Shown here one piece after another: positions 24,112 to 26,435 of a DNA stretch of 64,000 nt. The notes beneath the pieces are model-generated. The model had not been told where the DNA came from and made no database searches. It worked only from the letters and a program-made list of their open reading frames with translations. Location of the stretch: assembly GCF_002929825.1 (NCBI RefSeq), contig NZ_PJJN01000036.1:124001-188000 (forward strand), written 5' to 3'. How positions within the stretch are numbered: the stretch's first letter is position 1; the number at the start of each line of letters is the position of its first letter. The stretch is from Cryobacterium sp. Y29. Its GTDB lineage: Bacteria; Actinomycetota; Actinomycetes; Actinomycetales; Microbacteriaceae. A program made the position numbers and the translations under genes.

Positions 24112-24199
24112 TACTCATGATTCTAGTTGCGCGAGCCCTGCTGCCTCACGTCGAGCCCACGCCCGAGAAATCGGCCCAGTTTCTTGAGCGGGCCTGCGT

Positions 24200-25150
24200 T
24201 CATAAGGTAGGCCCGGGCGATGCAATGGCAACGAGGGCGTGCAGCGCGGCAGCCAGGGCAGGCACGCCTTCGGCGCCGGCCGCCGTCACGGCGTGCAGGG
24301 TGCGATGGTCACGCCCGGTCGTGGCCCGAATCGAAACACCCGAGCGCCGTCCGACGGACTCGATCGCGAGGGCCGGAAGCAATGCCACGCCGATACCGGC
24401 CTCGACCAGACCGAACACGGCGGCGACATTATCGGTTTCATAGGAGATGCGCGGGGCGAATCCGCGGCGATCGCAGAGGTCGAGCAGGTGGCCGCGACAG
24501 CGCGGGCAGCCGGCCACCCAGTTCTCGTCGGCGAGGGCGCGCAGATCAACCGGTGCGACGCCGTCGCCGAGCGGATGCCCGACCGGCAGCACGAGCATCA
24601 TCTCGTCCCGTTGCATGGTCGCCACTCGCAGCCCCTGCGCACTCTCCCGGTGCGGATCCACCCGATCCCCCGGGTAACTGAACGTGATGGCCAGGTCTGC
24701 CCGGTTGTCGCGCACGGCGGCGACAGCTTCGGGCGGTTCGGCCTCCAGATAGGTGATGCTGATCTGGGAGTACCGTTCCTTCATCTGCGCGAGCAGGCTC
24801 GGCACGAGGGTAGCGGATGCCGACGGGAACGCCACGAGCCGCACCAGTCCGGCGCGCAGACCCTGCAACTCGGCGATCTCCCCCTCTGCTGCATCGAGCG
24901 CGGTCGCCACGGTCAGGGCGTGCCGTGAAAGCACAAGGCCAGCCTCAGTAAGCCGAACGCCACGTCCGACTCGCTCGATCACGGCGAGCCCGAGTCGCTG
25001 CTCGAGCCGTTTGAGGTGCTGGCTCACGGCCGGCTGGCTGTAGCCGAGGGCGGCCGCTGCGGCAGTGATGGACCCACTCTCGTGCACTGCACGCACGACG
25101 CGCAGGGAGTGGGCGTCAAGGTCTGGGCTCTGCCCGGGCAGATGAATCAT
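24200..25150 (-). CDS. LysR-family transcriptional regulator
   Basis: A 316-residue regulator with an N-terminal LysR helix-turn-helix (VVRAVHESGSITAAAAALGY and SQPAVSQHLKRLEQRLGL) and a periplasmic-binding-protein-like effector domain (LVRLVAFPSASATLVPSLL, DLAITFSYPGD). It is divergent from an aminotransferase gene with 82 bp between starts, and a palindrome of the T-N11-A type lies in that gap. The regulator therefore probably controls the aminotransferase and itself. Inducer unknown. Confidence 0.92.
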   Translation of the reverse strand: MIHLPGQSPDLDAHSLRVVRAVHESGSITAAAAALGYSQPAVSQHLKRLEQRLGLAVIERVGRGVRLTEAGLVLSRHALTVATALDAAEGEIAELQGLRAGLVRLVAFPSASATLVPSLLAQMKERYSQISITYLEAEPPEAVAAVRDNRADLAITFSYPGDRVDPHRESAQGLRVATMQRDEMMLVLPVGHPLGDGVAPVDLRALADENWVAGCPRCRGHLLDLCDRRGFAPRISYETDNVAAVFGLVEAGIGVALLPALAIESVGRRSGVSIRATTGRDHRTLHAVTAAGAEGVPALAAALHALVAIASPGPTL

Positions 25151-25232: not shown

Positions 25233-26306
25233 ATGACCCCCGCACCAAAACAAATGAGCACCGTCAGCCTCGCCGACGCCCGCACCCGGTATACCTCCGG
25301 CCGCGGCTACCTGGCCGCCTGCACCCTCGGACTACCGACGCACGCCACGATCGCCGCGATGCGCGCCGACACCGACACCTGGGCCCGCGGTGAGGCCAGC
25401 GCCTCGCGTTACGTCGAGGTCGTCGAGCGCGTGCGCGCCGGCTACGCCGACCTCGTCGACGTCACGCTCGACCGCGTGGCAATCGGCTCACAGACCTCGG
25501 TCATGGCCGGGGTGATCGCCGCAAGCATCCCCGACGGCGGCGAAGTCGTGCTGCCGATTGGCGACTTCAGCTCGATGGTGTTTCCTTTTCTGGCCCAGGC
25601 GCATCGCGACGTGACCGTGCGGCAGGTGCAACTGGCCGACCTGGCCGCGAACCTGACCGCGAAGACCTGGATCGTGGCGTTTTCGCTCGTGCAGTCCGCC
25701 ACAGGAACCGTGGCCGACAGCGTCGCCATCCGGGCCGCAGCGCAGGCCACGGGAACCTTCACCCTCTGCGACACGACCCAGGCGACTGGGTGGATGCCGG
25801 TCGACGCCGCGGCATTTGACGCGACAATCTGCCACAGCTACAAATGGCTCGGTGCACCGCGCGGCGTAGCCTTCTTCACGGTCTCCGAAGCCTTCGCGGC
25901 GCAACTGCACCCCATCAACGCCGGTTGGTACGCCGGAGACGACCCGTGGGCATCCTGTTATGGGCCGGCAATGACGCTCGCCCCAGGCGCCCGCCGCTTC
26001 GACGTGTCGCCGGCCTGGCCGGCCTGGGCCGGTGCCGAGCCCGCCATCGATCTGTTCCGCAGCCTCGACCTGGCCGAGGTGCGCGCCCATAACGTGGCCC
26101 TGGGCAATGCCCTCTGTGACGGTTTGGGGGTGCCCCGGCTCGATCAGGCCATCATCAGCTGGCCGGATGCCGATGGCCGCGACCTCGCGCGCCTGACCGA
26201 TGCGGGCCTCACCGCTTCGGGTCGGGCCGGTCGCGCCCGCGTCGCCTTTCACCTCTTCAATGACGAAGAGGATGTGGCACTGGCCCTAGCCGCCCTGCGC
26301 CCGTGA
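25233..26306 (+). CDS. PLP-dependent aminotransferase class V (cysteine desulfurase/kynureninase-like)
   Basis: A 357-residue fold-type I PLP enzyme. The cofactor lysine is in CHSYKWLGAPRGVAFF near residue 205, with the aspartate that supports the pyridine nitrogen in CDTTQATGWMPV before it. The protein is shorter than SufS/IscS and lacks the mobile cysteine loop, so a true cysteine desulfurase is doubtful. Stand-alone members of this class act on varied amino acids. It is controlled most likely by the divergent LysR protein. Its 3' end runs into the double palindrome at 26324-26380. Confidence 0.88.
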   Translation: MTPAPKQMSTVSLADARTRYTSGRGYLAACTLGLPTHATIAAMRADTDTWARGEASASRYVEVVERVRAGYADLVDVTLDRVAIGSQTSVMAGVIAASIPDGGEVVLPIGDFSSMVFPFLAQAHRDVTVRQVQLADLAANLTAKTWIVAFSLVQSATGTVADSVAIRAAAQATGTFTLCDTTQATGWMPVDAAAFDATICHSYKWLGAPRGVAFFTVSEAFAAQLHPINAGWYAGDDPWASCYGPAMTLAPGARRFDVSPAWPAWAGAEPAIDLFRSLDLAEVRAHNVALGNALCDGLGVPRLDQAIISWPDADGRDLARLTDAGLTASGRAGRARVAFHLFNDEEDVALALAALRP

Positions 26307-26323
26307 CACCCTGACCCCGTGAC

Positions 26324-26380
26324 CCCCTGGACGGGGCCCGGGCCCCGTCCAGGGGCCCAGTTTATAAACTGGGCCCCTGG
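26324..26380. terminator. Overlapping perfect palindromes between convergent genes
   Basis: Two perfect 32-bp palindromes overlap: 26324-26355 (CCCCTGGACGGGGCCC and its complement) and 26349-26380 (CCAGGGGCCCAGTTTA and its complement). They share CCAGGGG, so only one can form at a time, in RNA or as a DNA cruciform. The site lies between convergent genes and probably terminates both, though no long T-run follows. Confidence 0.6.
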
Positions 26381-26435
26381 CCATAAGGTGGGCCCGGGAA
26401 CGGGGCAGGCAGGTACCGGAGCCGAGCGCCAAGCG

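Follow-up and report, generated by a model that had tools for sequence, protein, structure and literature searches.

Two convergent genes in a 64,000-nucleotide stretch of Cryobacterium sp. Y29 DNA (here the window, at its full length) are separated by a pair of palindromes that overlap in a shared arm. The locus poses the question of what such an arrangement does at the ends of two facing genes. It might be a switchable bidirectional terminator, a protein-binding array, or a cruciform-prone site, as the original prediction proposed, or it might belong to something that is not confined to this locus.

Two perfect palindromes share an arm between convergent genes

The upstream partner of the pair is a class-V aminotransferase gene (PF00266; positions 25233 to 26306, plus strand), and the facing partner is a fumarylacetoacetate-hydrolase family gene (fah, PF01557; 26436 to 27164, minus strand). 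Between them, CCCCTGGACGGGGCCCGGGCCCCGTCCAGGGG (hairpin 1, 26324 to 26355) and CCAGGGGCCCAGTTTATAAACTGGGCCCCTGG (hairpin 2, 26349 to 26380), neither assigned to a strand, each form a perfect 14-bp stem around a 4-nt center by both sequence and folding, and the heptamer CCAGGGG (26349 to 26355) is common to both 32-bp palindromes. As single-stranded RNA, hairpin 1 folds at −33.1 kcal/mol and hairpin 2 at −29.3 kcal/mol; for either one, 200 dinucleotide shuffles yielded no fold that was equally stable. Sequence and folding thus confirm the predicted palindromes and their common arm beyond chance. The accompanying claim that one palindrome forbids the other was too strong: in RNA folding of the stretch from 26330 to 26382, both hairpins form side by side at −44 kcal/mol, slightly shortened to 8 and 13 bp. 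Since they fold together, the palindromes are not mutually exclusive, and the border between them is movable. A search of the window with Rfam at gathering thresholds returned two tRNAs only, the phage and plasmid collections searched gave no match to the element described below, and no terminator-like site with a U-tract was detected at 26324 to 26397.

The palindrome pair is part of a dispersed repeat

The pair proved to be no unique switch; it belongs to a single copy of a repeat dispersed over the genome. Using a 141-base query around the site, we obtained at least 93 overlapping matches in the Y29 genome at an E value of ≤0.001 (from scoring 40 of the 51 candidates of the first look). The stretches fetched around these matches contain 41 nonoverlapping places, one of which (L062) is just 22 bp long. 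A search for the same pair elsewhere in the genome and in relatives, proposed as a check from the start, accordingly gives about 40 places in Y29 and more in related Cryobacterium.

The palindrome pair was taken at first for the whole feature; it falls within a larger one, which has an additional box and ends near 26397. Query positions 49 to 118, which correspond to a core at 26328 to 26397 (plus strand), recur across the Y29 genome and its congeners. This core consists of a beta half with its own hairpin (hairpin 1, recognized from sequence, folding, and pairing counts), a central hairpin (hairpin 2, the better supported stem of the repeat family), and an alpha half with CATAAGGTGGGCCCGG. 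The distribution of spacings between GGGCCC words in the loci has sharp peaks at 6, 13, 18, and 19, which gives four boxes in the fixed register B1-N13-B2-N12-B3-N13-B4. In the window, this array (GGGCCC-N13-GGGCCC-N12-GGGCCC-N13-GGGCCC, without strand) spans 26334 to 26395, with boxes at 26334, 26353, 26371, and 26390 and an extra GGGCCC at 26340 beside the four in register. In the lowest-energy RNA fold of the full element, the central 14-bp hairpin is kept and the outer boxes pair around it. The common form of hairpin 1 is its core, GGACGGGG...CCCCGTCC, found in 126 of 159 copies, and the CCCCT flank extension that completes the palindrome here is copy specific. The halves are modular, beta carrying its own hairpin GGACGGGGCCCGGGCCCCGTCC and alpha reading CATAAGGTGGGCCC, and they occur as beta-alpha, beta-beta, and alpha-alpha elements with AGTTTATAAACT-like or ATGATCTATCAT-like centers. 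Tandem copies about 150 bp apart also occur.

Eleven of the 60 genomes searched with the 141-base query, Y29 included, gave matches, and all 11 are of one genus. A pattern scan of public genomes returned at least 105 stretches, and among the matches listed, 80 of 80 are from Cryobacterium. The GGGCCC register, at two mismatches or fewer, is present in 18 of 57 Cryobacterium genomes. The Y29 genome has 39 such arrays in exact register, and twelve other rich genomes have 38 to 77; the poorer genomes are G072 (15), G028 (9), G077 (8), G074 (4), G027 (1), and G036 (none). The reversed pattern, used as a control, was found 0 times in Y29 and 0 to 4 times in the other genomes. Like REP and BIME sequences, then, the element is a short, palindromic extragenic repeat present in tens to hundreds of copies. 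The Y29 copies look unevenly spread, with several each on contigs C36, C26, and C20 (226 to 271 kb) and two on C34 (464 kb).

The window probably holds a second, decayed copy (24156 to 24215, plus strand) at the 3′ end of a LysR-type gene (24200 to 25150, minus strand), to which an nhmmer model built from 30 Y29 copies gave a score of 24.0. If so, the divergent LysR/aminotransferase pair is flanked by the repeat on either side.

The element lies almost exclusively at gene 3′ ends

Among the 41 copies in the Y29 genome, 19 lie between convergent genes, 21 between co-directional genes, none between divergent genes, and one at a contig end; two overlap a called gene (contexts were assigned with a simple codon-based gene caller). 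Across several species, we placed 201 copies distinct by flank and left out 20 of them, 13 because they were at the edge of a locus and 7 because they overlapped a called gene. The resulting 181 copies, whose counts are not independent because many of them are orthologous to each other, comprise 84 in convergent gaps, 64 in co-directional gaps on the same strand, 30 in co-directional gaps on the opposite strand, and 3 in divergent gaps. The gap thus contains at least one gene 3′ end for 178 of the 181 distinct nongenic copies, the other three lying between divergent genes. The background of all neighboring gene pairs in the same loci, element gaps included, is 713 co-directional, 209 convergent, and 182 divergent pairs.

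The copies also begin close to the stop codon, at a median distance of 22 nt in convergent gaps (measured from the upstream gene), 19 nt in co-directional gaps on the same strand, and 30 nt on the opposite strand, with outliers reaching 562 nt. The median length of co-directional gaps is 194 nt if they contain an element (n = 87), about 69 nt of this being the element itself, versus 34 nt if they do not (n = 626). Such long gaps fit the expectation for transcript boundaries. In the window, a C-rich spacer (26307 to 26327, plus strand; from the sequence and the flank profile) runs from the aminotransferase stop codon to the repeat, and the flank profile of 177 copies shows that the bases just before the repeat are T/C-rich and G-poor. 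In the loci of several genomes, TAG is the stop codon of 65 of 116 genes before elements and of 314 of 912 other called genes, and TAGCCCC followed by a T/C-rich run is present in 19 of 177 flanks before the element.

Hairpin arms vary with partial retention of symmetry

A further check suggested at the outset was whether the palindromes vary while their symmetry is kept. From 177 copies with readable flanks, we took 159 in-register copies and compared them with shuffled pairings, bearing in mind that such tests overstate significance because the copies are related. Both outer arm bases of hairpin 2 are complementary in 69 of the 159 copies versus 22.7 after shuffling (15 of 34 versus 5.4 in Y29 alone), and the flank that extends hairpin 1 is complementary in 33 of 159 versus 13.4 (9 of 34 versus 3.8 in Y29). 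The arms are therefore complementary above the shuffled level, with symmetry kept in part only. The dinucleotide matches at all three positions in 17 of 159 copies, and independence of the two pairings would predict 14.3; the shared arm thus reflects two tendencies that happen to overlap and no special switch.

In an alignment of 24 Y29 copies, the arms of the central hairpin covary: the covariation score is 0.104 versus 0.057 shuffled, with 1 of 500 shuffles as high, and 89.3% of cells are paired versus 86.1%. Pair changes on both sides show no excess (3 versus 2.6 shuffled). Hairpin 1 scores 0.090 versus 0.055 (14 of 500); sliding its partners by +2 or +3 columns gives a score of 0.091, yet only 45 to 49% of cells are then paired, versus 85% in register.

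We also compared pairing at the outer two positions by strand. Watson-Crick pairs number 81 in same-strand copies (51.2 shuffled) and 91 in convergent copies (57.4 shuffled), and the excess is absent from opposite-strand copies (21 versus 25.3; n = 33). G-U pairs in same-strand copies number 16 versus 25.6 shuffled, and their reverse-strand equivalents number 7 versus 18.7. With respect to RNA pairing, this wobble test is suggestive only.

Arrays are retained at orthologous sites and absent from one clade member

We compared four orthologous sites, and an array is kept at each by most of the clade relatives that could be read, with subtype and arm letters that differ between species. Sites 1 to 3 lie in one 9.4-kb region that we compared with 16 clade relatives; sites 2 and 3 are readable only in relatives that have the intervening gene. 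A recognizable array is found at site 1 in 11 of 13 readable relatives (decayed in G014, G074, and G077), with half an array in G034 and none in G036; at site 2 in 11 of 11; and at site 3 in 8 of 9, with half an array in G034. Doubled arrays are seen at site 1 in G078 and G035, at site 2 in G017, G063, G012, and in part G035, and at site 3 in G009 and G014.

The fourth site is that of the window, behind fah, where 11 of 17 clade genomes, Y29 included, carry the array. Eight of the other 16 have an intact-looking array and two (G028 and G031) a decayed one, which speaks against an artefact in the Y29 genome. The site has the spelling GGGCGC in G017 and no array in G013, G074, G036, G034, G012, and G077. 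Behind fah in G068 come an element and, directly after it, an apparent gltX start.

An ordinary single hairpin at this position in close relatives would have spoken against the original prediction. G036 does have one: its fah convergent pair is separated by a 43-bp gap whose GC hairpin is compact and of the ordinary kind (−30.1 kcal/mol for a 55-nt fold), so the array is dispensable there. Most readable relatives, on the other hand, keep arrays. Two other convergent sites in G036 have gaps of 41 and 42 bp with weak folds (−9.5 and −15.9 kcal/mol), versus −60 to −93 kcal/mol for the corresponding, but longer, Y29 gaps. At four further sites (c1 to c4 in L052/L036, read in part), copies are mostly decayed or partial in G028, G074, and G077, and G036 has none at c2 and c4. 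In a tree of 22 genomes built from up to four genes, G036 groups with G077 and G078 inside the clade (support, 0.99). This placement makes loss the likely explanation for the absence of the element from G036, likely rather than proven in view of support values of 0.06 and 0.09 at neighboring nodes.

At the DUF4032/SpoU site, where genomes of the Y29 clade have elements, inspection by eye of 12 other Cryobacterium genomes found ordinary palindromes with an A-tract, stem, and T-tract in seven (G032, G076, G062, G018, G008, G066, and G025). G020 has a T-run hairpin behind SpoU, no palindrome was recognized at the site in G026, G064, and G067, and G072 has arrays there. In Y29, the DUF4032/SpoU gap contains an AbiEi-like domain gene between two inverted elements (L039, 10056 to 11424, on C36). 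This gene is absent from G036, G077, and G074, whose gaps measure 92, 72, and 80 bp, and solo half hairpins are seen in G077 and G074. Inverted pairs about 1.2 kb apart had been considered as possible flanks of a transposase; the one Y29 pair examined encloses this AbiEi-like domain gene and not a transposase.

A sister family carries compensated boxes

Other Cryobacterium clades have arrays in the same 13-12-13 register with inner boxes GGGCGC/GCGCCC and outer boxes that are mostly CGGCGC/GCGCCG. Relative to GGGCCC, these spellings amount to an exchange on both sides of one base pair in the inner box pair and of two in the outer. At three mismatches or fewer, this sister family is found in 28 of 57 genomes, where counts of 1 to 3 equal the level of the reversed control; the highest counts are in G008 (27), G066 (26), G025 (21), G026 (17), G067 (16), G032 (14), G064 (13), and G076 (11), and G062, G075, G018, G020, and G036 have 5 to 9 each. 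The likeness of the sister half ACCCTGTGGAAGC to the alpha half ACCTTATG.AAC points to common descent of the two families. Twenty sister copies from three genomes are distributed as 9 convergent, 9 co-directional, and 2 divergent. Their covariation does not rise above shuffles (86.0% paired versus 87.2%; score, 0.072 versus 0.077), and pairs changed on both sides number 8 versus 5.2 shuffled. At site 1 in G036 (L228), there is a short tandem GTGGGCGCAGGTTCG repeat that resembles half of the sister family.

A proposed gene-end RNA hairpin and its alternatives

We think it rather likely that this is a REP/BIME-like dispersed element that sits behind stop codons and acts as a bidirectional 3′-end RNA hairpin. 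As polymerase runs past a stop codon on either strand, the transcript would fold the very stable central hairpin, and the outer boxes would pair around it or form a second hairpin. The transcript would then end at the element, either because polymerase is helped to stop or because 3′ exonucleases are blocked, so the predicted 3′-end function is that of a terminator or an exonuclease barrier. Since the element is nearly symmetric, it could serve both genes of a convergent pair. Copies may have spread or been homogenized, possibly via recombination between copies, and may decay or vanish in some lineages. The idea of a bidirectional terminator for convergent genes fits in part: the site is convergent, its sister copies are at 3′ ends in either orientation, and it has the stable GC-rich stem behind a stop codon that is typical of intrinsic terminators, but the U-tract is lacking. 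The ordinary T-tract palindromes at the DUF4032/SpoU site in other Cryobacterium and the TTT runs in arrays of a second genus, described below, also speak for such a role. At about 40 copies per genome, on the other hand, the element cannot serve most transcript ends, and G036 does without it.

Mobile DNA offers a different account, which we regard as doubtful but worth serious attention. The copies would be selfish REP- or MITE-like sequences moved by a transposase, with gene 3′ ends as harmless landing places and the hairpin as a means of mobilization. Dispersal, restriction to lineages, modular halves, tandem copies, absence from G036, and few or decayed copies in G074, G028, and G077 would all be expected of such DNA. 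PMC3733652 describes a similar preference for convergent and unidirectional gaps among the repeats of REP-rich genomes elsewhere, so that position alone is no proof of function. Against this account, none of the 57 Cryobacterium genomes has a Y1_Tnp (RAYT) domain, whereas 5 of 14 control genomes were positive, and the copies stay at orthologous positions across species. A less probable reading would make these a class of modular, RAYT-less 3′-end elements with a rigid register and compensated box words, spread over Cryobacterium and present in one or more further genera of the family. Some factor of the host or of a mobile element would copy or homogenize them and exchange the gene cassettes between them, and the lineages in which the elements were lost (G036 and, in part, G074, G077, and G028) would have lost this factor.

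Function at the level of DNA, as a nucleoid or gyrase binding array or as a cruciform where convergent transcription collides, appears unlikely to us. The stretch from 26324 to 26400 is palindromic as DNA (−33.6 kcal/mol as a single strand), many copies are at convergent ends, and G-U pairs fall below their shuffled numbers; co-directional gaps, however, hold about half of the copies, and arms that vary yet remain complementary, together with a changed box sequence, speak against a fixed protein recognition sequence. The suggested protein-binding array is thus not favored, as the arms covary instead of keeping one sequence, and the 18- to 19-bp box spacing, which does not equal whole helical turns, would also count against it. 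Even less probable is the switchable terminator, in which the shared arm would form hairpin 1 or hairpin 2 in alternation and so regulate the convergent pair. The shared dinucleotide does covary with both partners, in Y29 alone as well as overall; still, the two hairpins can coexist, copies with both matches occur at nearly the independent rate, the full-element fold pairs the outer boxes, and the annotated genes beside copies are of unrelated families (nine proteins), so that no common signal is evident. Very improbable indeed are attC-like recombination sites at 3′ ends through which gene cassettes would be gained and lost. The paired-box palindrome of 62 to 70 nt at gene 3′ ends recalls attC, and so does the AbiEi-like gene between inverted elements, with solo half hairpins or no element where the gene is missing. 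The attC R-box consensus is GTTRRRY, which by eye is not conserved in A1/A2, and the copies are scattered over many contigs.

Relation to known repeats

The family touches on how REP-like sequences persist without RAYT and on whether gene-end hairpins are maintained because they benefit the host. Its orthologous sites have arms that change and are compensated in part, its boxes have two spellings in a single genus, and one clade member is element-free, features by which terminator, mRNA-stabilizer, and selfish-DNA models could be separated. The element resembles REP/BIME sequences in being short, palindromic, extragenic, dispersed, modular, and mostly in convergent and unidirectional gaps. It differs from the RAYT-associated REPs of Enterobacteria, Pseudomonas, and others in the absence of RAYT, in its larger four-box register (about 70 bp), and in its retention at several orthologous sites across species. 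Neither 24 aligned Y29 copies, inspected by eye, nor the flanks profiled for 177 copies show an invariant unpaired GTAG or CGTC tag beside the stem. The Rickettsia RPE and those CGTC-tagged REPs that apparently lack a transposase of their own belong to other phyla, and CGTC in the Cryobacterium element is inside a paired arm and not an unpaired tag. The likeness to these two, as described in PMC3733652, is that of palindromic dispersed repeats with apparently no dedicated transposase.

Bidirectional intrinsic terminators, among them those made of inverted DNA uptake sequences (PMC1852404), share with the element a GC-rich palindrome between convergent genes and a repeated short word in inverted pairs. 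The Cryobacterium copy differs in having no U-tract or A-tract at 26324 to 26397, and the family differs in its copy number, in the tens where those terminators have hundreds or thousands, and in a box word that changes between sister clades. The element would thus work like REP/BIME sequences or bidirectional terminators, and we file it as neither, given that it comes without RAYT and without a U-tract. The passages found in a study of Cryobacterium genomes (PMC7381226) mention palindromic repeats for CRISPR only, and we found no description of the repeat in the literature searched, mostly outside subscription journals, by title, opening lines of abstracts, and selected passages.

The register recurs in a second genus

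The four-box register is not confined to Cryobacterium. In a sample of 398 members of the family, 8 match it: G142 and G259, four of the ten Cryobacterium sampled (Y29 among them), and chance-like single matches in G370 and G401. G142 and G259, from a second genus, have 28 and 6 arrays, respectively, with GGGCCC boxes in the same register, and three other sampled genomes of that genus have none. Of 14 copies placed relative to genes, 8 are convergent and 6 co-directional. Nine of these 14 copies have a run of TTT or longer after the stem, in the interval from box 3 to box 4, and 7 have AAA before it.
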